A stretch of 64,000 nucleotides of DNA, taken from Oxalobacteraceae bacterium OTU3CINTB1. GTDB taxonomy: Bacteria; Pseudomonadota; Gammaproteobacteria; Burkholderiales; Burkholderiaceae_D. Both the position numbers and the translations under genes were made by a program. Positions 44,953 through 60,989 of the stretch are shown in pieces. Where the stretch lies: positions 2,790,001 to 2,854,000 of the forward strand of contig CP099652.1 of the NCBI GenBank assembly GCA_024123955.1, read 5' to 3'. The notes under the pieces were generated by a model. That model searched no databases. It was not told the DNA's origin and worked only from the letters and a program-made list of their open reading frames with translations. Within the stretch, counting starts at the first letter, position 1; each line of letters opens with the position of its first letter.

Positions 44953-47229
44953 ATGATGGGGAAGAGGGATTTTCGGGTCGCTGTCGTGTTGTCGGCTGGG
45001 GTCATTGCCGGCGCTCAGGCGCAGACCGCAACGCCTCCGCAGGACGGCGACCGGATAGAAAAAGTGGAGGTCACCGCGACGCGTTCGGCCAGCGCGGTCG
45101 ATGTGCAGCAGGTGCCGGCGGCGATCACCGTGCTCAAACCGGACAATCTGACCAAATATGGCCTCGGCAGCCTGACCGATATCGCCAGCCTGGTGCCGGC
45201 GATGTCGGTGCAGGAGCAGGGACCGGGTATCAACAACATCACGATGCGCGGGTTGGTTGTGCGCGGCATCGTCCCTTCCGAAGTGCAGGACGCGTCGCTT
45301 GTCGCGGTGTACATCGACGACATGCCGGTGACGCTGAAGTCGTCCAATCCGGACCTGAAGGTGCTGGATCTTGAGCGCATCGAGGTGCTGCAAGGCCCGC
45401 AGGGTACCCTGTTCGGCGCCGGCGCGATGGCGGGCGCGGTCCGCCAGATCACCCAGAAACCCGATGTGACCGATTTATTCGGCTCGGTGGAGGCGGTCGG
45501 CTCCAGCACATCCAAATTTGGTGGTGGAAATCACAACCTGCGCGGCATGGTCAACCTGCCGCTGAAAAACGATGTGCTGGGACTTCGTCTGACTGCCTAC
45601 ACGGGCGACGACTCGGGCTACATCCGCAACCAATACAACGGCGCCGTCACCAACGCTGTCTCCACCAACCAGGGACGGGCGGCGCTGCGCTTGAAGGCTT
45701 CGCGCGATCTGGTGATCGACGCCAGCGTCACCGCGTCCAATGTCAAGGCGGGTGTCAACGACGCTTACGGCGATCTGGCGCCGTACACCACCTTCGCGCT
45801 GATCCCGCAGACCAGCAACGACAAACTGCAGCTGTATAACGTTGGCGTCAACTACGATTTGGGCGGTGCGCAGCTGGTTTCGTCGACCTCCTACCTGCAT
45901 CGCGACACGCTGTACGTGACATCGGCGCAGTATCCGGCGACGGCGTTTATCTTCGGCGGACAAAATCTGCTGATGCAGGCCGCCTACACGATCGGCAACA
46001 AGGTCGATGACTTCGCGCAGGAGTTCCGCGTCAATTCCAAGGGTGAAGGCCCGTTCAAGTGGACCGCCGGCGCTTTCTTCGAGAAGGGCAAGCGCAATAC
46101 GCTGCAGGACGAGCCGACTGTCGGTTTCGATGCGCGCTACGCCGAGACCCGCAATTTTCCCGGCTATAACTCGCAGACCAACGAACTGGCTTTCAATCCG
46201 GACGATTTCTTCTCTGGCGCGCAAAACACCAAATCGCGCCAGGCCGCGCTGTTCGCCGAAGCGACGTACACCGTTTGGGAAAAGCTGGACCTGACGGCCG
46301 GCGTGCGGCTGTTCCGCGGCACGCAGGACTTCGATCTGCGTTTCAGCGGCTTGTTCGGCAATCTGGTCGGCGCCACGCCGGCCGCGCCGGTCGGGCAGCC
46401 GACCCTCAGCAACAGCAGCGCGACGTCGAAAGGCGCCAATCCGCGTTTCGTCGCCGCCTACCGTCTCGATCCAGATCACACGCTTTACGCCTCGGCGGGC
46501 AAGGGCTTCCGCTATGGCGGCAACAACCAGCCGGTGCCTTTCAACTTCTGCGGCATCAACGCGCCCACCACGTTCGAACCTGACAGTCTGTGGAACTACG
46601 AGGTCGGCTCGAAAAACACGCTGCTGAATCATCGTATGACGTTCAACGCCAGCGCCTATGTGATCGAATGGAAGGACGTACAGGTGTTCAACCGCCTGCC
46701 TTGCACTTACTACTTCACGCAAAACGCCGGCAAGATCCGCAGCGAAGGACTGGAACTGGAAACTGCCTTCAAGCTGACGCGCCGCGCATCGGTGGGATTG
46801 AGTGCCGCCTACAACCACGCCTACGCTACGCGGACTGTCGTCACCGGCATCGCAGCCCAGAACATCCCCGAAGGCAGCCGCGTTCCGTATGCGCCGCGCC
46901 TGTCGGCCACCGCCACCGCCAGCTACAGCATTCCGGTGCGCGGCACGGACGAAGTGGGCGTCTCCGCCAGCTACGCGTATCGCGGCGACGCCTACACCAA
47001 CTTCGCGCCGGAGCAGGGAAGTTATGCGCGCATTCCGTCGTCGAACACGGTCAACGCCACGGTGACGTACAAGACCGGCGCCTACGAGGTTGGCCTGTTC
47101 GGCACCAACCTGACCAACGGCGCCAAGGTGAGCGACGTGGTACCCAACACCATCGCCATCCAGCCTGGTAATCTGGTGTACATGGCGCGTCCCCGCACCG
47201 TGGGCCTGCGCGTTAAAGCGAGATTCTGA
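44953..47229 (+). CDS. TonB-dependent receptor (unknown substrate)
   Basis: The 758-residue receptor has a short signal peptide (ends AGAQAQT), a plug domain (VEVTATRSASAVDVQQVPAAI, YIDDMPVTLKSSNPDLKVLDL and LQGPQGTLFGAGAMAGAVRQI) and a barrel ending GLRVKARF. The ribosome site is AAGGA at 44944. Its stop overlaps the desaturase start (TGATG). The FyuA/iron-complex-like plug is not specific. Linked genes are a membrane desaturase and a PhnD-like protein, an unusual set. Confidence 0.92.
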   Translation: MMGKRDFRVAVVLSAGVIAGAQAQTATPPQDGDRIEKVEVTATRSASAVDVQQVPAAITVLKPDNLTKYGLGSLTDIASLVPAMSVQEQGPGINNITMRGLVVRGIVPSEVQDASLVAVYIDDMPVTLKSSNPDLKVLDLERIEVLQGPQGTLFGAGAMAGAVRQITQKPDVTDLFGSVEAVGSSTSKFGGGNHNLRGMVNLPLKNDVLGLRLTAYTGDDSGYIRNQYNGAVTNAVSTNQGRAALRLKASRDLVIDASVTASNVKAGVNDAYGDLAPYTTFALIPQTSNDKLQLYNVGVNYDLGGAQLVSSTSYLHRDTLYVTSAQYPATAFIFGGQNLLMQAAYTIGNKVDDFAQEFRVNSKGEGPFKWTAGAFFEKGKRNTLQDEPTVGFDARYAETRNFPGYNSQTNELAFNPDDFFSGAQNTKSRQAALFAEATYTVWEKLDLTAGVRLFRGTQDFDLRFSGLFGNLVGATPAAPVGQPTLSNSSATSKGANPRFVAAYRLDPDHTLYASAGKGFRYGGNNQPVPFNFCGINAPTTFEPDSLWNYEVGSKNTLLNHRMTFNASAYVIEWKDVQVFNRLPCTYYFTQNAGKIRSEGLELETAFKLTRRASVGLSAAYNHAYATRTVVTGIAAQNIPEGSRVPYAPRLSATATASYSIPVRGTDEVGVSASYAYRGDAYTNFAPEQGSYARIPSSNTVNATVTYKTGAYEVGLFGTNLTNGAKVSDVVPNTIAIQPGNLVYMARPRTVGLRVKARF

Positions 47230-48191
47230 TGCTGAAGCAGCGGCCCTCCGAGTATATCGATGCGCATCAGCGCGGCGAGGTCGCTGCGGAACGGGGTCGC
47301 TTGCTTTGGCTGGGCGAGTGGCCGACGTGGGTGCTGATCGCCGTTATCCACGGCGGCTGGCTGCTGACGCTTGCATATTGGCGTGAGATCGGTACCGTGC
47401 CCGCGACGTTGCTGATGATTTGGTGGTGTGCGTGGTACATGTCGCTGCAGCACGAACTGATACATGGCCATCCCACCCGCTGGCCGGCGGTGAACCGCCT
47501 GTTCGGCTATCTGCCGCTGGCGGTGTGGTACCCATATGGCCTTTATCGCGACAGCCATCTGCGCCACCATAACGACTTTCACTTGACGATGCCTGCGCTG
47601 GACACCGAGAGCAACTACGTCGCACCGGCGCGGTGGGCGGAAATGAATAAGCCCTTACGCGCGCTGCACTGGTTTAACAAGACTTTTTGGGGACGCATGC
47701 TGGTCGGTCCGGCGCTGGCCGTCACCGGCGCCTGGGTCGAGGCGGTGCGCGAACCGCTGCGGGGCGAATGGCGCAATGTGCCGATGTGGCTGACCCATGT
47801 CGCCGTGCTGGCGGCGATGTTGTGGTGGGTGCGGTCGGCCTTCGGCGTCGAGCCTCTGTATTATCTGCTGGCGATCTCGTATCCGGCGCAATCGCTGGCG
47901 ATGGTGCGTTCCTACTATGAGCACCGGCCTGCGGCGGATCACAAGCAGCGCATCGTGCTCAATGAAGCCGGTTTCGTTTGGCGGGTGCTTTTCCTGAACA
48001 ATAATCTGCACCTGGTCCATCACGACCTGCCTTCGGTGCCGTGGTATCTGCTGCCGCGCGTCTACAGGGCGCGGCGGCTGGCTTACAATACGCGCAGTGG
48101 CGGTTTTCATGTCCAGGGTTATGGACGGTTGATGCGCCGTCTCGGTTTCGGCGCGATCGACGCGCCGGTGCATCCCCATATGCCGGATTAG
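47229..48191 (+). CDS. Membrane fatty-acid desaturase/hydroxylase-type di-iron enzyme
   Basis: The 320-residue protein has four or more membrane helices and the three histidine boxes of the di-iron family: H75-H79-H81 (HELIHGH), HLRHH at 110-114, and HLVHH near 260-264. The family includes acyl desaturases, carotene hydroxylases and alkane hydroxylases. It overlaps the TBDR stop and is 4 bp from the next gene, so the three form an operon. The substrate is unknown; it may modify a compound imported by the receptor. Confidence 0.88.
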   Translation: MLKQRPSEYIDAHQRGEVAAERGRLLWLGEWPTWVLIAVIHGGWLLTLAYWREIGTVPATLLMIWWCAWYMSLQHELIHGHPTRWPAVNRLFGYLPLAVWYPYGLYRDSHLRHHNDFHLTMPALDTESNYVAPARWAEMNKPLRALHWFNKTFWGRMLVGPALAVTGAWVEAVREPLRGEWRNVPMWLTHVAVLAAMLWWVRSAFGVEPLYYLLAISYPAQSLAMVRSYYEHRPAADHKQRIVLNEAGFVWRVLFLNNNLHLVHHDLPSVPWYLLPRVYRARRLAYNTRSGGFHVQGYGRLMRRLGFGAIDAPVHPHMPD

Positions 48192-48195
48192 TTAA

Positions 48196-48984
48196 ATGAC
48201 CTGGATTGCCGCTCTGCCGATGTACAACGTCTCCGAGCGGCTTGGACAGGCCTATGAAGGGCTGCTTGCCGCGCTGGCGGAGGAGGCCGGGCAGGTGGTT
48301 TCGCTGGCATCGCCTTCGGACCTGCCGGCGTTTTGGCGGCAGCGGGATCTGCTGCTTAGCCAGACTTGCGGTTATCCCTATATGACCCAGTTGCGGGGCA
48401 AGGTGACATTGGTCGCCACGCCCTGCTACGATTTCGCCGGGTGCTCCGGTAGCGATTATTCGAGCGTCATCGTGGTGCGCGAGGGTGCGGAGGTCGATGT
48501 GCTGACCGATGCGGTCGGGCTGGTCGCGGCGATCAATGATTCGAGTTCCAATAGCGGGATGAATGTGCTTCGCCATGCGGTGGCGCCGCTGGCGCGGGGC
48601 GGGCGGTTCTTCGGTAAGGTGATTCAGTCGGGGAGCCATGCCGCCAGCGTGCGCATGGTGCGCCAGGGCGCGGCCGATATCGCGGCGGTGGACTGCGTCA
48701 CGTGGGGGTATCTGGCGCGGGAGGATTCAGGGGCGGTGAGGGGGCTGAAGGTGCTACGGTATTCGGTGGCGTCGCCAGGTTTGCCGTTGATCGCGGGTGG
48801 TGGGGTGGAGGAGGCGTTGGTGGTGCGGCTGCGCGGGTCATTGTTGCGGCCGAGTGCGCGGGTGCGAGCGTTGATGGAGGTGTTAAGTATTCGCGGCTTC
48901 GAATATCGTGACGACGCCGATTACGCGCGGATTCTCCAGCTTCAAACGGAGGCCGAGACGGCGGGTTATCCGGGAATCACGTAG
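48196..48984 (+). CDS. PhnD-like periplasmic-binding-fold protein without signal peptide
   Basis: The 262-residue protein matches phosphate/phosphonate binding proteins: WIAALPMYNVSERLGQAYEGL start, SQTCGYPYMTQL, NDSSSNSGMNVLRHAVAPLA, GSHAASVRMVRQGAADIAAVD. There is no signal peptide, so it should stay in the cytoplasm, which is odd for a transporter protein and suggests a sensor or enzyme-partner role. It ends next to paired REP-like palindromes. Confidence 0.82.
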   Translation: MTWIAALPMYNVSERLGQAYEGLLAALAEEAGQVVSLASPSDLPAFWRQRDLLLSQTCGYPYMTQLRGKVTLVATPCYDFAGCSGSDYSSVIVVREGAEVDVLTDAVGLVAAINDSSSNSGMNVLRHAVAPLARGGRFFGKVIQSGSHAASVRMVRQGAADIAAVDCVTWGYLAREDSGAVRGLKVLRYSVASPGLPLIAGGGVEEALVVRLRGSLLRPSARVRALMEVLSIRGFEYRDDADYARILQLQTEAETAGYPGIT

Positions 48985-49075
48985 GGCGGATTAGCGTAGC
49001 GTAATCCGCCAATGCATGCTCCGTCGACGGCTCATAGATGGCGGATTACGGCTTCGCCTAATCCCGCCCTACGTG
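48979..49075. repeat. Inverted pair of REP-like palindromes
   Basis: The first element (48979-49012) reads CACGTAGGGCGGATTAGCGT and closes with GTAATCCGCC, overlapping the last codons of the PhnD-like gene. The second (49040-49075) runs GGCGGATTACGGCTTCGCCT to CTACGTG in the opposite direction with one extra C. The pair lies between convergent gene ends. Confidence 0.85.
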
Positions 49076-49113
49076 TCTCTGTGGTTGTTCAAACGTTCAG
49101 GTGCGCGGGTACT

Positions 49114-50079
49114 TTACTTCGTGCCGCGCCACAGCGGCACCGCTGTCGCATCCAGCTTGCGCGGCAGCAGACCCTCGCCGTAAAACGCGTCGGCGATGCG
49201 CTGCTGCTCGCCCAGCGCGTCCTTCTGCACCAGCCGCACATCATAGCTGCGCCGGCTATTGGCCAGTTCCACCGTCTTCGCATCCAACCCCCACGCCGGT
49301 GCCAGCAACTCCGCCGCCTCCTTCGGCGATTGCTTGACCCATTTGCCGGTCTTGCGCAAAGCTTCAAAAACCACCGCCAGCACGTCCGAACGCGCCTCCG
49401 CATAGCTGCTCGACGCCAGGTAATAGCGCTGATAGTCGGCGATGTTGCGGCCATCCGCCAAAATCTTCACCGGCGACTGCCGCTGCACGCCAGCCAGATA
49501 CGGGTCCCAGGTCACCCAGGCCGCAACACTGCCACGCTCGAACGCCGCGCGGCCATCGGCCGGCGTCAGGTAAGCCGGTTCTATGTCCTTGAATCGCAAT
49601 CCCGCCTTGTCCAGCGCCGCGATCAGCAGGTAGTGGCTGCCCGCCGCCTTGGTCAGTGCGATCTTCTTCCCCTTCAAATCCGCCACGGTTGCATACGGCG
49701 CGTCGGCGCGCACCACGATCGCCTGCGCGGACGGCGACGGCGCCTCCTGCGCGAAATAGGTCAGCTGCGCGCCGGCAGCCTGCGCGAATACCGGCACCGT
49801 ATCCGCGACGTCGGCGCTTAAATCCACGCCGCCGACATTGAGCGCTTCCAGTAGCGGCAGGCCGCTGGAGAACTCGTGCCAACTGACCTTGACGCCCAGC
49901 GGCGCGAGATCCTGTTCCAGTTGGCCGCGTACTTTGAGGATGGTGAGCAGGGTGGAAGACTTCTGATAGCCGATGCGCAGCGTCGATGGTTTTTGCGCCA
50001 ACGCCGGCAAGGAAGCCAGCGGCAGCAAGGATGTCAATGCAAACAGGGATAGCACGGTACGGCGGCGCGGGGTGAACAT
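49114..50079 (-). CDS. Aliphatic-sulfonate-type ABC substrate-binding protein (SsuA-like)
   Basis: The 321-residue protein has a signal peptide (ends LPALAQK) and the SsuA/TauA/NrtA fold: LRIGYQKSSTLLTILKVRG, HEFSSGLPLLEALNVGGVDL, KIALTKAAGSHYLLIAALDKAGL and WVTWDPYLAGVQ. It captures sulfonates or sulfate-ester-like organosulfur compounds. It is divergent from the oxidase gene, and their spacer holds one of two related 42-bp modules; the permease and ATPase (ssuC, ssuB) lie 6 kb away under the other. No other transporter of this kind is adjacent, so they probably work together. Confidence 0.9.
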   Translation of the reverse strand: MFTPRRRTVLSLFALTSLLPLASLPALAQKPSTLRIGYQKSSTLLTILKVRGQLEQDLAPLGVKVSWHEFSSGLPLLEALNVGGVDLSADVADTVPVFAQAAGAQLTYFAQEAPSPSAQAIVVRADAPYATVADLKGKKIALTKAAGSHYLLIAALDKAGLRFKDIEPAYLTPADGRAAFERGSVAAWVTWDPYLAGVQRQSPVKILADGRNIADYQRYYLASSSYAEARSDVLAVVFEALRKTGKWVKQSPKEAAELLAPAWGLDAKTVELANSRRSYDVRLVQKDALGEQQRIADAFYGEGLLPRKLDATAVPLWRGTK

Positions 50080-50204
50080 GAAGACTCCGGAAGTTGGTTA
50101 TCTTTCGATTGTAGGTCGCGTGTCACGGTCCCCGGAACGAATGGTTTCGCGTTTGGATATAGCGTCGGCACATATCGCCCACGTAAATACATTATTCTCA
50201 AAAT

Positions 50205-50246
50205 TCATATTTCAATATGATAAACAATTAGTTTCTACATAATTAT
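50205..50246. promoter_or_regulatory. Shared 42-bp promoter module (copy A)
   Basis: This 42-bp block is identical to copy B (55837-55878) at 34 positions without gaps. Its core AAACAATTAGTTT (50222-50234) is exact in both, with ACATAAT after it. The block lies between the divergent SsuA-like gene and the Tat oxidase gene. Shared sequence in front of two linked operons suggests a common regulator, possibly CysB- or SsuR-like. Confidence 0.75.
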
Positions 50247-50292
50247 CCGCGTCATAAGATCGCTCCAACTTGACCAATTCGTGGAGCTACTA

Positions 50293-51882
50293 ATGACAGT
50301 ATCGCGTCGGAACTTCCTCATGCAGCTTGCTGCGACCAGCGGCTACGCCGCAGCCACCGCCGCCATGACGACCCTGGGTTTAGGCGCGCCGTCGATCGCG
50401 GTGGCCGGCCAAACCACCGGTTTGCAACTGGCTCCCGGTTCGGGAAAGGGCTTGCGCGTGCTGGTGCTGGGCGCAGGCATTGCCGGCCTGGTGTCGGCCT
50501 ACGAGCTGCGCAAGGCTGGCTATGAGGTGCAGGTGGTGGAGGCGCGCGAGCGCGTCGGCGGTCGTAACTGGACCATACGCAACGGCACCCGCATCGAGTA
50601 CGAAGACGGCACCACGCAGACCGCCGAATTTGAGCCGGACCACTATTTCAACGCGGGGCCGGCGCGTTTGCCCAGCCATCATCAGACCATCCTGGGCTAC
50701 TGCCGCGAGTTCGGTGTCGAGTTGGAGGCGGAGGTCAACACCAGCCGCAGCGCCTATTTTCTGCCGGATCCTGCCAAGGGCGGCCAGCCGATCCAACTGC
50801 GCCGCGCCATCAACGATGCGCGCGGCCATATCTCCGAGCTGCTGGCCAAGTCGGTCAACCGCGGCGCGCTCGATCAAGAGCTGAGCGTTGACGACCGTGC
50901 GCGCCTGGTCGAATTCCTGAAGGTTTATGGCGACCTGACCCCAAAGTCTGAGTTCAAGGGCACCGAGCGTTCCGGCTACAAGGTCTTTCCGGGATCGGCG
51001 GAGCAGGTGGGCGAACGCCAGGAACCGTTGTCGCTGGAGGCCTTGCTCCACCCCGACCTCTGGACGTCGTTGATTTTCGACGAGCTGCTGATCTTCCAGC
51101 CGACGATGCTGCAACCGGTCGGCGGCATGGATCGAATCCCCCACGCCTTCTACGAGCGGCTGAAGGATGTGGTGCGGCTGAATACAGAGGTCAAGGCTAT
51201 CCGCAACAAACCGGCGGGCGTCGATGTGACGGTGCGCGACCGCGCCAGCGGCACTGTGCAGGTGCTGTCGGCCGATTTCGCTGTCACGACTTTCCCTTTG
51301 CCGGTGCTGGCGCTGGTCGACACCAATTTCTCGCCGGAGGTGAAAGCCGCGATCTCCGGCGTTCACTACGACACCGCCAGCAAGATCGCCTGGCAGTCGC
51401 GCCGCTTCTGGGAAACGGATACCCATATCTATGGCGGCATCTCCATCGTCAAGCACGAAACGGCGCTGATCTGGTATCCCAGCGGCGGTTTTCACAAGGC
51501 CACCGGCGTACTGGTTGGCTGCTACAACATCGGCCAGGCCGCGCGCGACTTCACCGCCAAATCCCTGGCGGCGCAATTTGCGTCCTCTCGCGGCGTCATC
51601 GACCGCGTGCATCCGGGACGCGGCGCCGAACTGCAACGTCCAGTCAGCGTGGCCTGGCACAAGGTGCCTTACAGCCTTGGGTCGTGGGTGCACTGGGCCA
51701 CGCCGGCGGAGAAGGAATACACGTTACTGAATAAGCCGGAGGGGCGCGTCCACTTCGCCGGCGAGTACCTGAGCCAGATCGGCGCATGGCAGGAGGGTGC
51801 CGCGCTGTCGGCCCACCATGCAATCGCCGCCATCGCACACCGCGTTGCCACCGGCGCTACCTTCGCCAAGCGCGCCGCCTGA
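50293..51882 (+). CDS. Tat-exported flavin monoamine/amino-acid oxidase
   Basis: The 529-residue protein starts at the ATG at 50293 with a GGAG site; the N-terminus has a twin-arginine signal SRRNFLM (residues 4-10) and a hydrophobic stretch. The FAD-binding domain follows (LVLGAGIAGLVSAYELRKAG, EARERVGGRNW), and the C-terminal FAD/substrate region has VHFAGEYLSQIGAWQEGA. These belong to the monoamine and L-amino-acid oxidase family, producing imine (then ammonia) and H2O2 in the periplasm. It is followed 27 bp later by a RidA gene. Confidence 0.9.
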   Translation: MTVSRRNFLMQLAATSGYAAATAAMTTLGLGAPSIAVAGQTTGLQLAPGSGKGLRVLVLGAGIAGLVSAYELRKAGYEVQVVEARERVGGRNWTIRNGTRIEYEDGTTQTAEFEPDHYFNAGPARLPSHHQTILGYCREFGVELEAEVNTSRSAYFLPDPAKGGQPIQLRRAINDARGHISELLAKSVNRGALDQELSVDDRARLVEFLKVYGDLTPKSEFKGTERSGYKVFPGSAEQVGERQEPLSLEALLHPDLWTSLIFDELLIFQPTMLQPVGGMDRIPHAFYERLKDVVRLNTEVKAIRNKPAGVDVTVRDRASGTVQVLSADFAVTTFPLPVLALVDTNFSPEVKAAISGVHYDTASKIAWQSRRFWETDTHIYGGISIVKHETALIWYPSGGFHKATGVLVGCYNIGQAARDFTAKSLAAQFASSRGVIDRVHPGRGAELQRPVSVAWHKVPYSLGSWVHWATPAEKEYTLLNKPEGRVHFAGEYLSQIGAWQEGAALSAHHAIAAIAHRVATGATFAKRAA

Positions 51883-51909
51883 TTTCTTTTTACATCGAGA
51901 GAGCACACC

Positions 51910-52410
51910 ATGAAAACCACCGCTAAAGTATTGTTTGCAAGCCTGTACTTGTCCACCGTCGCCGCCCAGGCGCAGCAGATCAAGCGCACGCCCATCCCCA
52001 ATTCCAATTTCCCCATCTCGGTCGCCGTCACTGTGCCGGCCAACGCGGAAACCATCTATTTCAGCGGCGTGCTGCCGGATGTCGCCGACGCCACCGCGCC
52101 GAAAGGAACGCCGGCCGCCTATGGCAATACCGAGACGCAGACCGCGTCGGTGCTGCGCAAGCTGCAGTCCGCGCTCGCGGCCGAAGGGTTGTCTTTCGGC
52201 GATGTCGTCTCGCTGCGGGTGTTCCTGGTGGGCGATCCGAAGCTGGATAACAAGCTTGATTTCAGCGGGCTGAATACCGCCTTCGGCCAGTTCTTTGGTA
52301 CCGCCGCGCAGCCGGCCAAGCCGGCCCGCACCGCCTTGCAGGTCGCAGCGCTGCCGCTGCCCGGCGCCCTGGTGGAGATCGACCTGGTCGCCGCCCGCGT
52401 CAAGCCATAA
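51910..52410 (+). CDS. Exported RidA-family protein
   Basis: The 166-residue protein has a signal peptide (MKTTAKVLFASLYLSTVAAQAQ) and a RidA/YjgF fold (IYFSGVLPDVADA, YGNTETQTASVLRKLQSALAAEGLSFGDVVSL in parts, PLPGALVEIDLVAA). RidA enzymes hydrolyse reactive 2-aminoacrylate and other imines. Most are cytosolic; this one is exported, and its gene follows an exported amine oxidase that makes imines. The pairing suggests periplasmic imine clean-up or completion of the oxidase reaction. Confidence 0.87.
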   Translation: MKTTAKVLFASLYLSTVAAQAQQIKRTPIPNSNFPISVAVTVPANAETIYFSGVLPDVADATAPKGTPAAYGNTETQTASVLRKLQSALAAEGLSFGDVVSLRVFLVGDPKLDNKLDFSGLNTAFGQFFGTAAQPAKPARTALQVAALPLPGALVEIDLVAARVKP

Positions 52411-52439
52411 CTTTTCATATCCTTCAGGAGCTGAACCGC

Positions 52440-54827
52440 ATGAATCAACCATCATCGATCCGACCACGTCTTCTTCCCTTAGCATTGGCAATCTCGCTGT
52501 TATACGCAGCCGCGTCGCCGGCCATGGCCGCCGAAGCCGAACCCGAAGCGGCGGCGCTGGCCGCCGCCGTCGTGCAGGACGTCGTCGTCACCGGCACCCG
52601 CGACCTTCAACGCTCGGCCGGCGAAAGTCTCAGTCCCATCGATGTGATCAGCGCCAAGGATTTGCAGCGCACCGGCCAGACCGATTTACGCGACGCGCTG
52701 GTCAAGCTGCTGCCGTCGATCAACCGGCTGGCGCAGACCGGCGACGCCGCTAACCTGACCAGCGCACTGACCTTGCGCGGGCTCAGTCCCAATCACGTTC
52801 TGCTGCTGGTGAATGGCAAGCGCCGTCACACTTCTGCCAACATTACTGCCGATGCAGGCTCGCAGCAGGGCGCCACGCCTGTCGACATCGACCTGATACC
52901 GGTCAGCGCCGTCGACCATATCGAGGTGCTGCGCGACGGCGCGGCGGCGCAATACGGGTCCGACGCCATCGCCGGCGTGATTAACGTCATACTCAAGTCG
53001 TCGAGCCAGGGCGGACGCCTGACCGCCACCACCGGCGAATACTACAAGCACGACGGCTTCACGCTGGGCGGCGCGGCCGATATCGGCCTGCCGCTCGGCG
53101 CGGACGGTTTCCTGCATCTGAGTGCGGAATACCGACGGCATGAGCACAGCATGCGCAGCGGCGCCGACGAGCGAACCGGAACTTTTGTCAACCGTACGCT
53201 CGGCGACCCGCAGATCCGCCGCGAATCGTTCGGCGCCAACGCGGGCATCGTGGTCAGCAAGGATGTCGAGATGTACGCGTTCGGTACCGCCGCCCATCGC
53301 ACAGGCGGCAGCTATCAGAACTACCGGCTGCCATCGCGGCTGCCGCAGGTGCATCCCAACGGCTTCAGCCCCATCGAAACCAGCAACGAGACCGATGCCG
53401 CGCTGACCGCCGGAGTGAAAGGTACCGACCTGGCGGGGTGGCGCTGGGACCTGAGCGCCAGCTACGGCATCGACAACGTCAAGATCAACATGGTCGATTC
53501 CGCCAACACCGATTTGTACGCCGCCACCGGGGTCACGCCCACCAGCTTCCATCTGGCGCAGTACAAGAATATCCAGCAAAGCGCGAATGCGGATCTGGCG
53601 CGCTCGCTCGATACCGGCTTTCTGCCATCCTCGTTGAGTGTGGCGCTGGGCGCGGAATTTCGCCGGGAGAGTTATGAGGTGGGGGCGGGCGACGATGCTT
53701 CTTACTTCGGCAGCGGCTCGCAGGCCTTGCCTGGACTGTCCCCGGTCAGCGCCGGCAAGCACTCGCGCAATATCGGCGCCGCCTATGTCGATTTCTCGAC
53801 CAAGTTGACGAGCCAGTGGGAGGCCGAACTGGCCGGCCGCTATGAGCACTACAGCGATGCCGGCAGCACACGCAACGCCAAGGTCTCGACGCGCTATGAG
53901 TTCAGTCCCCGCTTCGCGGTGCGGGGTACCGCCAGCACCGGCTTCCGCGCGCCGTCGCTGGCACAGGCGAATTACACCAGCCTCGCCGTCTCGCCCACAA
54001 CGGCCGGCGGCCAGCTGGCCGTCAATTCGGAGGCGGCTCGCAAACTGGGCGCCCTGGCGCTGCGGCCGGAGAAGTCGCGCAGCTTCAATCTGGGCCTGGT
54101 CGCCGAGCCGATAGAGAATCTGCATGTGACGGTGGATGCCTATCGTATCCTGATCCGCGACCGGATCGTCCAGGGTGGCACCTACACCGGCCAGGCGGCG
54201 ATCGATGCGCTGACGGCGGCCGGCATCAGCTTGCCGGCCGGGCTGTCTTCGGTCAGTGCCAGCTACTACGCGAACGGTGTCGACACGCGCACGCAGGGGC
54301 TTGATTTTGTCGCGGGCTACCCCACCAACCTGGGAACCCTGGGCCGCGTCGACTGGGACTTCAGCGCCAACATCAACACGAGCAAGGTCACCAAGGTTGC
54401 CAACGACGGCAACGGACAGACCCTGCTCAACGCCCAGCAAGTCGGTTACCTGACCACTGCCACGCCCAAGAACAAGCTGATTATCGGTGGCGTCTGGACG
54501 CTGGACGACTGGAGCGTCAGCCTGCACGCCACTCGTTACGGCAAGACCGCCACCGAAGCGACTTTCTATTCGGGACCGAATATCTACTCGACGACGGTGT
54601 TCAACCACATAGAGAACAAGCCGAAGACGCTGACCGATCTGGAATTGCGCTACGCGGTGACGAAAAAGCTGCAAGTGGCCGCCGGCGCGACCAACCTGTT
54701 CGACGTCTATCCGACCAGGGTGCCGCCCATCAGCCGGTATCTGGGCGTGTATCAGTACGATACGGCGGCCGCGCAGATACCGTTCAATGGCGGCTATTAC
54801 TACGTCAGGGCAAACTACAAGTTCTGA
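52440..54827 (+). CDS. TonB-dependent receptor of the oxidase/organosulfur cluster
   Basis: The 795-residue receptor has a signal peptide (ends SPAMAAEA), a plug (VVTGTRDLQRSAGESLSPIDVI in parts, LRGLSPNHVLLLVNGKRRHTS, YGSDAIAGVINVIL) and a barrel ending YYVRANYKF. It follows ridA by 29 bp, so it is in the oxidase operon. Its substrate may be an amine, amino acid or organosulfur compound handled by the neighbours. A dedicated tonB-exbB-exbD set lies 7 kb downstream. Confidence 0.92.
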   Translation: MNQPSSIRPRLLPLALAISLLYAAASPAMAAEAEPEAAALAAAVVQDVVVTGTRDLQRSAGESLSPIDVISAKDLQRTGQTDLRDALVKLLPSINRLAQTGDAANLTSALTLRGLSPNHVLLLVNGKRRHTSANITADAGSQQGATPVDIDLIPVSAVDHIEVLRDGAAAQYGSDAIAGVINVILKSSSQGGRLTATTGEYYKHDGFTLGGAADIGLPLGADGFLHLSAEYRRHEHSMRSGADERTGTFVNRTLGDPQIRRESFGANAGIVVSKDVEMYAFGTAAHRTGGSYQNYRLPSRLPQVHPNGFSPIETSNETDAALTAGVKGTDLAGWRWDLSASYGIDNVKINMVDSANTDLYAATGVTPTSFHLAQYKNIQQSANADLARSLDTGFLPSSLSVALGAEFRRESYEVGAGDDASYFGSGSQALPGLSPVSAGKHSRNIGAAYVDFSTKLTSQWEAELAGRYEHYSDAGSTRNAKVSTRYEFSPRFAVRGTASTGFRAPSLAQANYTSLAVSPTTAGGQLAVNSEAARKLGALALRPEKSRSFNLGLVAEPIENLHVTVDAYRILIRDRIVQGGTYTGQAAIDALTAAGISLPAGLSSVSASYYANGVDTRTQGLDFVAGYPTNLGTLGRVDWDFSANINTSKVTKVANDGNGQTLLNAQQVGYLTTATPKNKLIIGGVWTLDDWSVSLHATRYGKTATEATFYSGPNIYSTTVFNHIENKPKTLTDLELRYAVTKKLQVAAGATNLFDVYPTRVPPISRYLGVYQYDTAAAQIPFNGGYYYVRANYKF

Positions 54828-54889
54828 TTAGGAGGTAATATGGCGTCTGTTTTTGCAGGGTTTAACTTGATACATACGTCGATACTTAC

Positions 54890-55816
54890 ATGAAAATAGA
54901 TGACATCAGTGCGTTCGTGGCGGTGGTGCGCAGCCAGTCGGTCAGCGCCGCCGCCGAAACGCTGGGGCTGACGCAGTCGGCGATCACGCGCCGCGTGCAG
55001 AACCTGGAGCAGGAGCTGGGCGTGGAACTGCTCGACCGCAGCGTCAAGCCGCCCAAACCTAGCCTGATGGGCAAGCAGGTGTTCGAGCAGTGCGGAAAAG
55101 TGCTGCTGGAAGTCGACCGCCTGCGCGACCTGGTGCAGATGGACCAGGCGCCCACCGGCGTATTCCGCATCGGTGTCATTCAAACCATCGGCGACGTGGT
55201 GCTGCTCGATACGCTGCAAAATTTGAACCGCACCTTCGACGGCTTGCATACGGAGGTGACGTCGGGCTGGGGTTCGCAGTTGGTCGAGCGGGTCGCCAAC
55301 GCGGAGATCGACGCCGCCGTGGCGCTGTTCCCGGCCACGAAAGTGCTGCCCGAAGGGCTGCGCGGGCGCACGCTTGGCCGAATTGAGCTGGTGATCGTCG
55401 CGCAGAAGGGCGCCATGCCCAAGCGCAGTTACAAGCTGCGCGACATTTTCAGTACCGGCTGGGTGCTCAATCCGGACGGTTGCGGCTTCCGCGCCGGGCT
55501 GGCGCGCGCATTGATGGAGCAGGGGCTGTCGTTCAAGATCAATCTCGAGACCTTCGGCACCGACCTCCAACTGGGCTTGGCCGCCAGTGGACTGGGACTG
55601 GGACTGATGCCGCGTCCCATACTGGAGCGCAGCCGCCACCGCGCGCAGCTCGATATCGTTAACGTGGTGGACTTCAAACCGGTGCTGGATATCTGGCTGG
55701 TGCAGCCTTTGCAGCCAGGCCCAGTGCAACATGCGATTGATTTCTTCGCGCAGGCGGTGCAGCACGCGTTCGCCGAAGCGCCGCTGAAGGCGGTGCCCAA
55801 GGTCGCCTCCCGCTAG
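54890..55816 (+). CDS. LysR family transcriptional regulator
   Basis: The 308-residue protein has an N-terminal LysR helix-turn-helix (DISAFVAVVRSQSVSAAAETLGLTQSAITRRVQNLEQELG in parts) and an effector domain with a GVFRIGVIQTIGDVVLL start. It lies between the TBDR gene and the second 42-bp module, in front of ssuC. It is a good candidate for the regulator binding both module copies, by analogy to SsuR/CysB-type LysR control of sulfonate genes in Burkholderia; this is inferred. Confidence 0.88.
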   Translation: MKIDDISAFVAVVRSQSVSAAAETLGLTQSAITRRVQNLEQELGVELLDRSVKPPKPSLMGKQVFEQCGKVLLEVDRLRDLVQMDQAPTGVFRIGVIQTIGDVVLLDTLQNLNRTFDGLHTEVTSGWGSQLVERVANAEIDAAVALFPATKVLPEGLRGRTLGRIELVIVAQKGAMPKRSYKLRDIFSTGWVLNPDGCGFRAGLARALMEQGLSFKINLETFGTDLQLGLAASGLGLGLMPRPILERSRHRAQLDIVNVVDFKPVLDIWLVQPLQPGPVQHAIDFFAQAVQHAFAEAPLKAVPKVASR

Positions 55817-55836
55817 TTTTTAATTATTCCTGAAAA

Positions 55837-55878
55837 TCATATATCAATAGTCGAAACAATTAGTTTTGACATAATCAT
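55837..55878. promoter_or_regulatory. Shared 42-bp promoter module (copy B)
   Basis: This copy, upstream of ssuC, matches copy A at 34 of 42 positions, with core AAACAATTAGTTT at 55854-55866. A TTGACA hexamer starts inside the block at 55865, and TATACT lies 15 bp beyond it, a plausible if short-spaced promoter. It probably drives the long ssuC-to-exbD operon. Confidence 0.75.
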
Positions 55879-55945
55879 TTGCTACCTATACTAGATTTCA
55901 ACGGCTCGAAAAGCCTTCGAATCCTCAGCATAGGGAAGCAAAGAC

Positions 55946-56788
55946 ATGTCGGTTTCAACTCCTGCCTACGGCGGCGCGACAGTACCAGTATCCTCAGATA
56001 CCGCGCCCGCTAAAACCAAGCCTTCCGTTTTGCTCTCCGTGCTGCGGCGCGCCGCCAGCCCGCTGGTGCTGCTCGCGCTGTGGGAGGCGGCCTCGCGCAC
56101 CGGCTTTCTGCCCGAGCGCGTGCTGGCGGCGCCGTCGCAGATCTTCGTCACGCTGGGCGAGTTGATCGCCTCCGGTGAAATGGGCAGCAACGTATGGGTG
56201 TCGCTGCATCGCGTCGTTACCGGCCTGTCGGTGTCGCTCACCTTGGGCACCGCGCTGGCGCTGATCGCCGGCCTGTCGCGCCGGGGCGAAGTGGCGGTCG
56301 ATTCGACCATGCAGATGGCGCGCACCTTGCCTTTCCTCGGCCTGGTTCCGCTGTTCATTCTGTGGTTCGGCATCGGCGAGTTCACCAAAATTGCGCTGAT
56401 CGCCTTCGCCACCACCTTCCCGATGTACCTGACGCTGTATAGCGGCATACGCGGCATCGATTCCAAGCTGGTGGAGGCGGCGCGGCTGTTCGGCTTGAGC
56501 TACCCGCAGTTGATCGTCCATGTGATCCTGCCCGGCGCCTTGCCATCCTTCCTGGTAGGCCTGCGCTATTCGCTTGGCGTGAGCTGGCTGTCGCTGGTGG
56601 CGGTGGAGCAGATCAACGCCACGGCGGGCCTGGGCTACCTGATCAACAACGCCCGCGACTTCATGCGCACCGACGTCATCGTCGTCTGCCTGCTGGTCTA
56701 CAGCCTGCTGGGCCTCGCCACCGATCTGCTGGTGCGCGCCATCGAACACTATGCGCTGGCCTGGCGTCCGACCTTCATCAAGGACTGA
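55946..56788 (+). CDS. ssuC: Sulfonate-type ABC transporter permease
   Basis: The 280-residue membrane protein has about six helices and the EAA-like loop of SsuC/TauC/NrtB: GIDSKLVEAARLFGLSYPQ, ILPGALPSFLVGLRYSLGVSW. It starts the long downstream operon after the 42-bp module and is 2 bp before ssuB. The partner binding protein is most likely the SsuA-like product of 49114-50079. Confidence 0.92.
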   Translation: MSVSTPAYGGATVPVSSDTAPAKTKPSVLLSVLRRAASPLVLLALWEAASRTGFLPERVLAAPSQIFVTLGELIASGEMGSNVWVSLHRVVTGLSVSLTLGTALALIAGLSRRGEVAVDSTMQMARTLPFLGLVPLFILWFGIGEFTKIALIAFATTFPMYLTLYSGIRGIDSKLVEAARLFGLSYPQLIVHVILPGALPSFLVGLRYSLGVSWLSLVAVEQINATAGLGYLINNARDFMRTDVIVVCLLVYSLLGLATDLLVRAIEHYALAWRPTFIKD

Positions 56789-56790
56789 GC

Positions 56791-57654
56791 ATGCAAACCA
56801 TCCAACTCGATCTGCCAGGGACCGGCATCTCCGCACGCAACGACGGCGCCTCCAGCTTCCGCCCCGAAGCGCCGGTCGCGCCGCGTACCCCGGTGCAGGC
56901 ACGCTTGCTGAGCAAGCACTTCGGCCCCAACGTCATTCTCGACCAGCTCAATCTTGACATCCGTGCCGGCGAATTCGTCGCGCTGCTGGGCCGCAGCGGC
57001 TCCGGCAAGACCACGCTGCTGCGCGCACTGGCGGGATTGGACCGCATCACCTCCGGCACCCTGGAGGTGCCGCAAGCGCGCGCCGCCGTGTTCCAGGAGC
57101 CGCGCCTGATGCCGTGGAAGCGCGCCTGGCGCAACGTCACTTTGGGATTGAAGATCGACCAGCCGCGCGAACGCGCGCGGCGGGCGCTGGCCGAAGTGGG
57201 GCTGGATCACCGCGAGAACGCCTGGCCGGCGACGCTGTCCGGCGGAGAAGCGCAGCGCGTGGCCCTGGCCCGGGCGCTGGTGCGCGAACCGCAATTGCTG
57301 CTGCTCGACGAGCCGTTTGCCGCGCTCGACGCGTTGACCCGCATCCGCATGCACCAGCTGATCCTGTCGTTGTGGCGCCAACACCGGCCGTCCGTGCTGC
57401 TGGTGACGCACGACGTCGACGAGGCGGTGCTGCTGGCCGACCGCGTGCTGGTACTGGAAAAGGGCCGCATCGTCTCGGACATCGCAATCGCCCAACCGCG
57501 TCCCCGCAGCGCGGAGCGGCCGGAGTTCCAGCGGGTTCGCGCCCAACTGCTGCAATTACTGGGCGTGGAAGCCGATGCTCCGGCGCCAGCGCCCGAGCCG
57601 AAAGTCCAGGCGCCGGTTCACACGCCATTCAACTTCAGTAACTTCTCGATCTGA
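56791..57654 (+). CDS. ssuB: Sulfonate-type ABC transporter ATPase
   Basis: The 287-residue ATPase has Walker A GRSGSGKTT, signature TLSGGEAQRVALARAL and Walker B LLLLDEPFAALDAL, all as in SsuB/TauB. It has a 40-residue N-terminal extension and a short proline-rich C-terminal tail. Gaps to ssuC and to the next gene are 2 bp each. Confidence 0.93.
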   Translation: MQTIQLDLPGTGISARNDGASSFRPEAPVAPRTPVQARLLSKHFGPNVILDQLNLDIRAGEFVALLGRSGSGKTTLLRALAGLDRITSGTLEVPQARAAVFQEPRLMPWKRAWRNVTLGLKIDQPRERARRALAEVGLDHRENAWPATLSGGEAQRVALARALVREPQLLLLDEPFAALDALTRIRMHQLILSLWRQHRPSVLLVTHDVDEAVLLADRVLVLEKGRIVSDIAIAQPRPRSAERPEFQRVRAQLLQLLGVEADAPAPAPEPKVQAPVHTPFNFSNFSI

Positions 57655-57656
57655 TC

Positions 57657-58895
57657 ATGACCACATCCGTCCTTCGCCTGCCCGTCATAGATCCCGCCCA
57701 TCAGCTGGACAGCCCGGAATTCGCCGCGCTGCTGGAGGGCCTGAGCGCCGAATTCGCGGCCACCGCCGAACGGCATGATCGCGACGGCAGCTTCCCGCAC
57801 CAAAATTTCGAACGCCTGCACGAACTAGGTCTGCTCGGCCTGACGGTGCCGCGCGCCCTGGGTGGGCTGGGCGCCAGCCTGGCGCAGACGACGCGCGTGG
57901 TTGCCGCCGTGGCGCGCGGCGAGCCGTCCACCGCGCTGGTACTGACGATGCAGTATCTGCACCACGCGTCGGGCCGGCAGTCGAAGTGGCCGCCGCACCT
58001 GCTGCACCGTGTCGTCGAGGAGACTCTGCGCGACGGCGCGTTGATCAACGCGCTGCGCGTGGAGCCGGAACTGGGCACGCCTGCACGCGGCGGCCTGCCC
58101 GCGACCACGGCGCGACGCACACCGGAGGGGTGGCGCATCAGCGGCCGCAAGATCTATTCGACCGGCATACCGCGTCTGACCTGGCTGGGCGTTTGGGCCC
58201 GCAGCGACGATCCGGAACCGCTGGTCGGCAGCTGGCTGGTGCGCCGCGACACACCGGGCATCACAGTTATCGAAAACTGGGATCACCTGGGCATGCGCGC
58301 CACCGGTAGCCACGAGGTGGTGTTCGACGACGTGCTGGTGCCGCTCGATCATGCGGTGGAAGTGGCGCCGGCCGGTGCCGCGCCGGATCTGGATGCCTCG
58401 CTGCTGCTGTGGATGTCGGTGCTGCTGTCGGCGATCTACGACGCGGTGGCCCGCGCGGCCCGCGACTGGCTGGCGGCGTGGCTGGAAGAACGCGTGCCGG
58501 CCAATCTCGGCGCGCCGCTCTCGACGCTGCCGCGCTTTCAAGAGGCGTTGGGCCAACTGGATGCCTGGCTGTTCTCCAATCGGGTGCTGATTGATGCCGC
58601 CGCCAACGGCGCGGTGCCGCCGCAGGACGCCTTCCGCATCAAATACCTGGTCACGAACCAGGCTATCCAGGTAGTGGAAAAGGCGATTGAATTAAGCGGA
58701 AACCCCGGCCTGTCGCGCGCCAACGCGCTGCAGCGTCACTACCGCGATGTGCTGTGCAGCCGTATCCACACGCCGCAGAACGACACCATTTTAGTCAACA
58801 GCGGCAAGGCGGCTTTCGCCGCGCGCGCCGCCAGCAAAACCTCATCGTCCGGCGTGGCCGGCATTTCATCCATCACTGCAAAGGAAGCATCATGA
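57657..58895 (+). CDS. Acyl-CoA dehydrogenase-fold sulfur-acquisition flavoprotein (SfnB/DszC-like)
   Basis: The 412-residue flavoprotein has an acyl-CoA dehydrogenase fold: LGLLGLTVPRALGGLGASLAQ, GWRISGRKIYSTGIPRLTWLG, WDHLGMRATGSHEVVFDDVLV. Members beside ssu genes are SfnB or DszC-type monooxygenases that use reduced FMN to oxidise organosulfur compounds. It overlaps the next LLM gene by 4 bp. Its exact substrate is unknown. Confidence 0.85.
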   Translation: MTTSVLRLPVIDPAHQLDSPEFAALLEGLSAEFAATAERHDRDGSFPHQNFERLHELGLLGLTVPRALGGLGASLAQTTRVVAAVARGEPSTALVLTMQYLHHASGRQSKWPPHLLHRVVEETLRDGALINALRVEPELGTPARGGLPATTARRTPEGWRISGRKIYSTGIPRLTWLGVWARSDDPEPLVGSWLVRRDTPGITVIENWDHLGMRATGSHEVVFDDVLVPLDHAVEVAPAGAAPDLDASLLLWMSVLLSAIYDAVARAARDWLAAWLEERVPANLGAPLSTLPRFQEALGQLDAWLFSNRVLIDAAANGAVPPQDAFRIKYLVTNQAIQVVEKAIELSGNPGLSRANALQRHYRDVLCSRIHTPQNDTILVNSGKAAFAARAASKTSSSGVAGISSITAKEAS

Positions 58896-60007
58896 GCATC
58901 GAATTCATCGGCTTTAGCGCCACCCAAGAAGTATCCGAAACCGTGCTGCCGCAGGGTTCCGTCGTCAACAAGAGCTTCCTGGGAGCGGTGGCCCGCGCCC
59001 ACGAATACGCCGGTTTCGACCGCGTGCTGGTCGCCCACAGCAGCGCCTCGGTGGACGGCTTCCAGGTCGCCTCCTATATCGCTTCGCAGACGCAGAAGCT
59101 GGGCATCCTGCTGGCCCATCGCCCCGGCTTCGTGTCGCCGACGCTGGCGGCGCGCCAGTTCGCGACGCTGGACCATTTCAGCGACGGCCGCCTGGCGGTC
59201 CACGTCATCAGCGGTGGCGACGACACCGAACAGCAGCGCGATGGCGACTTCCTTGACCACGACCAGCGCTACCAGCGCACCGACGAATACCTGGACGTGG
59301 TCCGCAAGACGTGGACCTCGCAAGGGCCGTTCGACCACGAGGGCCCGATCTACCGCTTCAAGGGGCAGAACGCCGGCGTGCGCCCGCTGAACAACCAGCA
59401 CATACCGGTCTACTTCGGCGGCTCGTCCGAGGCGGCCATCGAAGTCGCCGGCAAGCATGCGGACGTGTACGCGCTGTGGGGCGAGTCGCTGGCCCAGGTG
59501 GCGGAGACGATCGCCCGCGTGCGGGCCGCCGCCGCCAGGCATGGCCGCGCCGACAAGATCCGTTTCAGCCTGTCGCTGCGCCCCGTGCTCGCCGCGACCG
59601 AGGATCAGGCCTGGGCCAAGGCCGACGCCATCCTGGCCACCGCCACCGAACGCGTAAAGGGCAATGTCCATTTCAGCCAGCGCCCGCAGCAACCGCAGAA
59701 CGCCGGCTCCCAGCGCCTGCTCGATACCGCTGCGCAGGGCAGGGTGGTCGACGAGCGCCTGTGGACCGGCATCGCCGCGCTGACCAAGGCGGCCGGCAAT
59801 TCCACCGGCTTGGTGGGCACGCCGGAACAGGTGCGCGACGCGCTGCTCAAGTACTGGGAACTGGGCGTGACCACCTTCCTGATCCGTGGCTTCGACCCGA
59901 TCCAGGACGCGCTGCAATACGGCCGCGAGCTGATTCCCCTGGTGCGCGCGGCGGTGGCCGAACGGGAAGCGTTGCAGGCCGGCGAACCTTCGCGCCTGGC
60001 CGCCTGA
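58892..60007 (+). CDS. FMNH2-dependent (LLM class) monooxygenase, SsuD-like
   Basis: The 371-residue protein starts at the ATG at 58892 (AAAGGAAGC site), overlapping the preceding stop. It has the SsuD core: YASQ-type KLGILLAHRPGFVSPTLAAR, RLAVHVISGGDDTEQQRDGD and PVYFGGSSEAAIEVAGKHADVYALWGE in parts. It desulfonates alkanesulfonates or related compounds in the cytoplasm, releasing sulfite. No FMN reductase gene is present in the window, so one must be supplied from elsewhere. Confidence 0.9.
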   Translation: MSIEFIGFSATQEVSETVLPQGSVVNKSFLGAVARAHEYAGFDRVLVAHSSASVDGFQVASYIASQTQKLGILLAHRPGFVSPTLAARQFATLDHFSDGRLAVHVISGGDDTEQQRDGDFLDHDQRYQRTDEYLDVVRKTWTSQGPFDHEGPIYRFKGQNAGVRPLNNQHIPVYFGGSSEAAIEVAGKHADVYALWGESLAQVAETIARVRAAAARHGRADKIRFSLSLRPVLAATEDQAWAKADAILATATERVKGNVHFSQRPQQPQNAGSQRLLDTAAQGRVVDERLWTGIAALTKAAGNSTGLVGTPEQVRDALLKYWELGVTTFLIRGFDPIQDALQYGRELIPLVRAAVAEREALQAGEPSRLAA

Positions 60008-60020
60008 TACGGAGCAGTCG

Positions 60021-60989
60021 ATGACCCAGACCACCAGTCTAAATAGAGCCAACATCATTGTCGCCAGCCAGTTCGACGCCAAGGTCAACGCCTTGTTGGC
60101 CCAGCGTACGGGCCTGGCCGTGCGCGACGTCCCACCGGGTCCGCTGACGGCACTGCCGCAAGGCGCCGACGTCCTGTTCGCGCTGCCCGCGCCGAAAGGC
60201 CAGACGCTGTTGCAGACACCCGCGCCGGCCGGCTGGAACGAGGTGCGCTGGGTGCAACTGGCCTCGGTCGGCATCGATTACTACCCCGATTGGCTGTTCG
60301 ACGGGCCGGTGGTCACCTCGGCGCGCGGCACCGCCTCGGTGGCCATCGCCGAATACGTGCTGGCTGCGATCTTCACAGCCGCCAAGCATATTCCGGAAAT
60401 CTGGCTGGAGCAGGCCAGCGACTGGCGCCGCCTGTCGCTTGGCCTGGTGCAGGGGACGACGTTGGGGCTCTACGGCTTCGGCTCGATCGGCCAGGCGCTG
60501 GCGCAACGGGCGCTCGCGCTGGGAATCAAGGTGGTGGCGCTGCGCCGCTCCGACGCGCCGTTCGGTGTCGAAGGCGTCGAGCGGGTCGACTCGCTCGATC
60601 AACTGGTGGCGCGCTCGGATCATCTGGTGCTGGCGGCGCCGTCGACCGCCGAGACACGCCACGCCATCAGCCGCGCCGCGCTAGCCCATGCCAAACCCGG
60701 TCTGCACCTGATTAATATCGCGCGCGGCAACCTGGTCGACCACCAGGCGCTGCTCGACGCGCTCAACGAAGGCAAGGTGGCGTTGGCGACACTGGACGTG
60801 ACCGACCCCGAGCCCCTGCCGGCCGGCCATGCGTTCTACGGCCACCCGCGCGTGCGCCTGTCGCCGCACATTTCGCCCAGCACCGATCAGATCGTGCCGG
60901 CGCTGATCGACAAGTTCGTGCTGAACCTGGACCGCTTCCGCAGTGGCGAACCATTGACCGACGTGGTCGACACCGCGCGCGGCTACTGA
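60021..60989 (+). CDS. D-isomer-specific 2-hydroxyacid dehydrogenase
   Basis: The 322-residue oxidoreductase has the NAD(P)-binding motif LGLYGFGSIGQALAQRALALG and the catalytic region HLINIARGNLVDHQALLDAL, then a DVTDPEPLPAGHAFYGHPRVRLSPHIS segment with a histidine. It lies in the sulfonate operon, 13 bp after the SsuD-like gene. It may act on a 2-keto or 2-hydroxy acid left after desulfonation; this is inferred. Confidence 0.9.
   Translation: MTQTTSLNRANIIVASQFDAKVNALLAQRTGLAVRDVPPGPLTALPQGADVLFALPAPKGQTLLQTPAPAGWNEVRWVQLASVGIDYYPDWLFDGPVVTSARGTASVAIAEYVLAAIFTAAKHIPEIWLEQASDWRRLSLGLVQGTTLGLYGFGSIGQALAQRALALGIKVVALRRSDAPFGVEGVERVDSLDQLVARSDHLVLAAPSTAETRHAISRAALAHAKPGLHLINIARGNLVDHQALLDALNEGKVALATLDVTDPEPLPAGHAFYGHPRVRLSPHISPSTDQIVPALIDKFVLNLDRFRSGEPLTDVVDTARGY

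Follow-up and report, generated by a model that had tools for sequence, protein, structure and literature searches.

What could connect three neighbouring groups of genes, none with a clear purpose, in Oxalobacteraceae bacterium OTU3CINTB1 (contig CP099652.1, positions 2,790,001 to 2,854,000; this 64,000-nucleotide stretch is called the window, and window positions are used below)? One group holds the gene of an SsuA-family sulfonate-binding protein, the second encodes a flavin amine oxidase, a RidA/YjgF-family protein, a TonB-dependent receptor and a LysR-type regulator (LysR54890), and the third encodes SsuC-like and SsuB-like transporter proteins, an SfnB-like oxidoreductase and a flavin mononucleotide (FMN) monooxygenase. 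A module found before the oxidase gene (copy 1) and again before ssuC (copy 2) is a real conserved regulatory site at both places and, judged from its letters, is most likely a candidate binding site for a LysR-type regulator. We consider it moderately probable that a LysR-type activator, most likely LysR54890, uses the module as its operator, and that the three groups form a single sulfur-scavenging regulon; the groups probably help this bacterium and its relatives to salvage sulfur from organic compounds. They thereby become one testable unit, for which a candidate regulator and its sites can be named.

Copy 1 (50205-50246) and copy 2 (55837-55878) agree without gaps at 34 of 42 positions and share an exact 13-bp core, AAACAATTAGTTT, starting at 50222 and 55854, as the preliminary description of this DNA had reported, and the similarity extends beyond the ends first noted, from ATTATTC to CATAAT (Table 1). 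Both spacers are AT-rich (23% and 26% G+C over 61 bp, against 64% for the window), as would be expected if the likeness were a chance one between AT-rich promoters with no shared regulator; but dinucleotide shuffles within 50-bp blocks of both spacers give best matches of 22.9 on average and 30 at most, with 34 or more in 0 of 2000, and chance AT-richness was rejected on this ground. A recent duplication, the other way of doing without a shared regulator, is disfavoured and was rejected because the oxidase-type and the ssuC-type copies each retain their distinguishing details between species; copies are also found at unlinked genes. Both explanations are thus highly improbable.

The preliminary description had proposed a genome scan, holding that many unrelated promoters with the core would speak against a common regulon, and this is not the picture that the 6,868,374-bp genome gives. 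The exact core occurs twice, a 38-bp pattern drawn from both copies has two matches at up to three mismatches (these copies; control 0), and so does a pattern of the invariant positions (control 0). With one mismatch allowed, the core has four matches, the same number as its reversed control, and the core alone is therefore weak evidence. A profile of 24 sites, which recovers its own training sites by construction, finds copies 1 and 2 only at E values up to 10, in a search that scored 150 of 457 first-look candidates and may thus have lost weak ones.

A scan with the oxidase protein yielded 24 loci, 11 in Oxalobacteraceae and 13 in other bacteria (Pseudomonas, Stutzerimonas and Caulobacter relatives). 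In the 11 Oxalobacteraceae loci the order oxidase-RidA-receptor-LysR-SsuC-SsuB-SfnB-like-monooxygenase is kept, and copies facing oxidase and ssuC are present in all of them; the 13 other loci have no profile match, the seven Pseudomonas oxidase promoters included. The oxidase copy is retained where ssuA does not adjoin (L013, L014, L102, L103), and in L013, where about 1.2 kb lies between lysR and ssuC, the second copy is found at ssuC. We therefore assign the two copies to the promoters of oxidase and ssuC. With a looser matrix, two of the seven Pseudomonas promoters (L020 and L021) beat most shuffles, of which 14 and 21 in 1000 are as good, and the other five do not. About 200 bases before the oxidase homologue, the Pseudomonas loci L016-L022 carry a different conserved leader, CATAATTAACTTAGAACC..., followed later by CCGACCCC...GGAGGCAAATGGATTT, with a possible small upstream open reading frame (ORF); a pattern search for this leader matched L017 only, and it is visible by eye in others.

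Parts of the unit have been lost or moved in several lineages, which provide natural tests of its wiring. In G187 (L095:13200-13900), an oxidase-type promoter and an apparent gene remnant now stand before lysR, and the oxidase, RidA and a close receptor were not found in 19.5 kb. G254 (L093:9335-10083) has a decaying locus, in which both divergent sites are kept beside ssuA and a truncated oxidase whose match covers residues 1-187 only.

The anatomy of the module points to the kind of protein that would read it. An ungapped line-up of 42 sites from 22 genomes falls into a single register from ATTATTC through the core, and the elements follow one another as ATTATTC, the dyad TCATATTTCAATATGA, the core AAA-N2-ATTAGTTT, CATAAT and a -10-like hexamer, with imperfect dyads TCATAT..ATGA and AAAC..GTTT. 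The core ends 20 nt before the hexamer at copies 1 and 2, and eight oxidase-type sites have one extra base in between. At the oxidase promoter, CATAAG, two bases before TAAGAT, scores equally well or better in a promoter-hexamer scan, and the exact hexamer is therefore a choice. LysR-type activators, in the available text of PMC11739112, are tetramers that bind a recognition site and an activation site. By sequence, copies 1 and 2 have such an activator-site layout, being two-part sites with dyad symmetry directly upstream of a promoter. The predicted operator would comprise an upstream dyad (TCATAT...) and the downstream AT-rich element that holds the core, and would serve a promoter lacking a -35 box at normal spacing.

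A stretch of AT-rich DNA before a -10-like hexamer might also be no more than core promoter or UP-element sequence used by RNA polymerase, all the more as copy 2 contains a perfect TTGACA (55866-55871), although only 15 nt before TATACT. But no plus-strand sigma-70 -35/-10 pair with 16-18 nt spacing passes the promoter scan at either copy, for which reason a consensus sigma-70 promoter was rejected as the plus-strand explanation (the scan gave one minus-strand match, at copy 2), and neither the 38-bp pattern nor the profile finds a further such promoter in the genome. This explanation is quite improbable. A known RNA element was rejected as well, as no Rfam family reaches its gathering threshold in 49000-60100.

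A third copy, missing from the preliminary description, is reversed and diverged and faces ssuA. In a weight matrix made from the 42 aligned sites and built without any ssuA-facing one, CGCTATATCCAAACGCGAAACCATTCGTTC is the third-best site of the 64 kb at 9.0 bits, the next score being -2.4 at a position overlapping copy 1, and TACAAT lies 21 nt downstream of it. The ssuA-facing element is the best minus-strand position in all 13 spacers with an adjoining ssuA, which are orthologous and thus not 13 independent tests, and is matched by 0 of 2000 shuffles in ten spacers and by 1 of 2000 in three; its scores are close to zero in two spacers (-0.5 in L159, 2.3 in L010). A second profile finds the third copy at E=6.9e-9, by which time the ssuA-facing sites had become training data. 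We had at one point held that ssuA needs no copy, since G199 kept ssuA without the module; this was withdrawn when the reversed copy was found there, and G199, which has lost oxidase, RidA, receptor and copy 1, thus retains ssuA with its own site. The earlier link of ssuA to the proposed regulon therefore holds, by way of ssuA's own reversed copy, and not by way of the spacer copy first noted, which faces the oxidase.

Which LysR-type protein would read the sites? Stricter filters were applied in the scans that covered more than 40 genomes, and a strong site is one with a profile E<1e-6. Among 74 genomes of the genus, this LysR is present in 17 and the site in 18, with an overlap of 17, so that the site occurs in one of the 57 genomes without this LysR, namely G254 with its decayed locus. 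Among 294 genomes of the family, a LysR of at least 60% identity is found in 15, strong sites in 13 and both in 12; the same 12 genomes have an SsuC of at least 75% identity, and G020, with an SsuC of 58%, has neither strong site nor LysR. Much of this co-occurrence could come from linkage and common descent, and sites away from lysR therefore matter. Strong sites of this kind occur only in genomes having this LysR (G112, G226, G309 and G341). In G112, lysR is on another contig, and the divergent spacer between ssuC and the sfnB-like gene has one strong and one weak site; in G226 a site stands before a TonB-dependent receptor gene on another small contig, which may or may not be linked to lysR. 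G309 and G341 have an extra site before a gene for an FMN lactate-oxidase-like enzyme, which has a start resembling a twin-arginine (Tat) signal and is probably exported; the two genes are 76% identical to each other, occur at E<=1e-100 only in these two of the 74 genus genomes, and in G341 the site is 1.24 Mb away from the locus.

Besides the part played by linkage and descent, several observations weigh against LysR54890 as reader of all three copies. Of the two G112 sites, the second is weak (E=9e-4) and lacks CATAAT. Three genomes (G054, G077, G096) have a LysR of 65-66% identity and no strong site anywhere, and in the Pseudomonas loci L017 and L022, where a LysR of 58-59% adjoins the oxidase, the profile has no match. 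At the core, site and regulator covary weakly: ATTCGTTT is read in five sites from genomes with a diverged LysR, but also in one lactate-oxidase site from a close genome, and this line of evidence was dropped. Finally, some genomes that lack this LysR (G067, G106, G254) have a looser motif, laid out in the same way, before sulfur genes.

Loose matches were also sought beside LysR relatives. In the lysR-side spacer, 11 of 1000 shuffles are as good in G096 and 169 in G054 (G077 was left out of this comparison); in G112, G252, G287 and G216 the counts are 3, 23, 1 and 12 per 1000. AT-rich, module-like spacers lie between distant LysR relatives (45-46% identity) and a divergent ssuC homologue in L105:812-1142 and L106:8890-9215; with the matrix, 1 and 12 of 1000 shuffles are as good, and the profile search has no match.

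The looser sites make a global sulfur regulator a serious rival, and they weaken the claim that reading of the motif is exclusive to the local LysR. Under this explanation, a LysR-type regulator of sulfur limitation (CysB or SsuR-like) would read all three copies, with the local LysR otherwise employed or modulating. The search gave 72 matches, made up of 26 strong or ssuA-facing sites and 46 weaker ones, and 32 of the latter were inspected (28 together and 4 more). Weaker matches, from 18 genomes, share CATAT-N-AAA-N2-ATTCGTT, often with a -10-like hexamer, and five of the genomes concerned (G040, G067, G106, G120, G254) are without this LysR. Of the 28, 4 had no ORF in range, and Pfam was run on 20 of the 24 ORFs found, the remaining 4 being relatives of genes in the set; to judge from the score, the length of the match or the gene, at least three of the 28 (L206, L215, L221) seem to be chance matches. 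Some examples of genes so preceded are that of TauA in G187, which has this LysR, and that of SsuE in G254, both scoring above their NCBIfam cutoffs (equivalog for TauA), TauD-like genes in G067 and G106, and genes for TonB-dependent receptors, EAL-domain proteins and amidotransferases. In a 1.2 Mb sample of the OTU3CINTB1 genome, 11 matches score more than 11 bits with a matrix partly trained on such sites, and three weak ones among them cluster around a sulfate-binding-protein gene (L193:2110-3299). The ssuA-facing copy is itself of the looser kind, and the strong copies may represent an AT-rich variant of a more widespread sulfur motif.

Against a global reader, the strong form is found in the family and genus genomes only with this LysR, save for the one decayed locus; CATAAT is present in none of the 14 looser sites checked and in 41 of the 42 aligned sites, a split that is partly built into the profile; and no motif like the window sites was found in the DNA upstream of E. 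coli tauA and ssuE, targets of CysB and Cbl, where the best score is equalled or beaten by 129 and 581 of 1000 shuffles. Weighing both sides, we favour the local LysR as the predicted regulator with modest confidence, and regard a global one as the less probable of the two, though a real possibility.

A looser site also stands before an EAL-domain gene in the OTU3CINTB1 genome (G000:C1 about 3070881; L193:4882-4911), and the same gene is so preceded in several genomes. This suggests a possible link of sulfur supply to cyclic-di-GMP.

Table 1. Genes and module copies of the locus (window positions)
Feature	Position	Strand	Remarks
SsuA-family sulfonate-binding protein	49114..50079	-	NCBIfam TIGR01728 184.5 bits, cutoff 163.5
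Third, diverged copy facing ssuA	50108..50164	-	30-mer 50135-50164; -10-like TACAAT 50108-50113
Module copy 1 (oxidase promoter)	50191..50260	+	ATTATTC 50191-50197; dyad TCATATTTCAATATGA 50205-50220; core AAACAATTAGTTT 50222-50234; CATAAT 50238-50243; -10-like TAAGAT 50255-50260
Flavin amine oxidase	50293..51882	+	Nearest solved structure 2jae (L-amino acid oxidase); Tat-like N-terminus by eye
RidA/YjgF-family protein	51910..52410	+	Signal-like N-terminus by eye
TonB-dependent receptor	52440..54827	+
LysR-type regulator (LysR54890)	54890..55816	+	Last gene of oxidase group; proposed reader of strong sites
Module copy 2 (ssuC promoter)	55823..55892	+	ATTATTC 55823-55829; core 55854-55866; CATAAT 55870-55875; -10-like TATACT 55887-55892
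SsuC-like permease	55946..56788	+
SsuB-like ATPase	56791..57654	+
SfnB-like acyl-CoA-dehydrogenase-fold oxidoreductase	57657..58895	+
Luciferase-like (SsuD-related) FMN monooxygenase	58892..60007	+	Start codon picked by eye

The proteins of the locus are relatives of known sulfonate proteins to different degrees. The binding protein is placed in the SsuA family by TIGR01728, and falls below the cutoff of a second SsuA model, PRK11553 (262.2 against 299). The permease and the ATPase score below the SsuC and SsuB equivalog cutoffs (233.5 against 347 and 262.0 against 395) and are thus related proteins, not equivalogs, and the monooxygenase has 233 bits against 518.2 for SsuD, the FMNH2-dependent alkanesulfonate monooxygenase. 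The oxidase, a putative L-amino acid oxidase, resembles 2jae, a solved member of that family, over its full length (281.4 bits over residues 55-520). LysR54890 scores below the cutoff of the NCBIfam CysB family (53.2 bits against 402). At 44953-48984, beside ssuA, lie a receptor gene, an ORF that by eye looks desaturase-like and a further, short ORF, as they do in several Duganella loci.

How might these proteins work together? Given LysR54890 as the reader, each group would have its own copy, the reversed one for ssuA, copy 1 for oxidase-ridA-receptor-lysR and copy 2 for ssuC-ssuB-sfnB-like-monooxygenase, and the regulator, whose gene comes last behind the oxidase promoter, would increase its own abundance. 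Binding, activation, operon structure, signal and substrate we infer from the arrangement of sites and genes. RidA-family enzymes hydrolyse imines. Organosulfur amino acids could be taken up by the receptor and deaminated by the exported oxidase together with RidA before they enter the cytoplasm, SsuABC would import the oxidation product and the monooxygenase would release its sulfur. The SsuA-family protein and the SsuB-, SsuC- and SsuD-related proteins are the basis for predicting scavenging from amino-type organosulfur compounds, and the substrate is a guess. A more specific proposal, rather unlikely in our estimate, is a dedicated LysR regulon that oxidises organosulfur amino acids, and in some species also hydroxy acids, outside the cytoplasm: the L-amino acid oxidase and RidA, both exported, and in two genomes an exported lactate-oxidase-like enzyme as well, would turn cysteate and sulfolactate, for instance, into a common oxo acid, to be imported by the split Ssu transporter for desulfonation. 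The broader reading of the three groups as one unit would by itself connect sulfonate use with an amino acid oxidase that is exported, with RidA and with a receptor of the outer membrane.

No description of this gene set or motif was met in the literature searched. A Burkholderia regulon of CysB and SsuR belongs to the same order, Burkholderiales, and likewise concerns sulfonate genes. The literature searches gave no paper displaying the binding sites of that regulon, and the available text of PMC10179380 names no motif. The ssu and tau operons of E. coli are controlled by CysB and Cbl, both LysR-type (PMC4501297). The locus resembles these operons in its SsuA, SsuB and SsuC-like proteins, its FMN monooxygenase and the LysR-type control of a sulfonate system, and differs from them in that ssuA is split off and divergent and that an oxidase, RidA and a receptor are added. 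Compared with the LysR-type operator in the available text of PMC11739112, the module likewise has two elements just upstream of the promoter, the first an imperfect dyad, whereas the predicted regulator gene is not divergent from its target and comes last in the group that it would control. Both the site and its regulator belong to a familiar class; what is unusual and interesting is the set of genes that the site joins.

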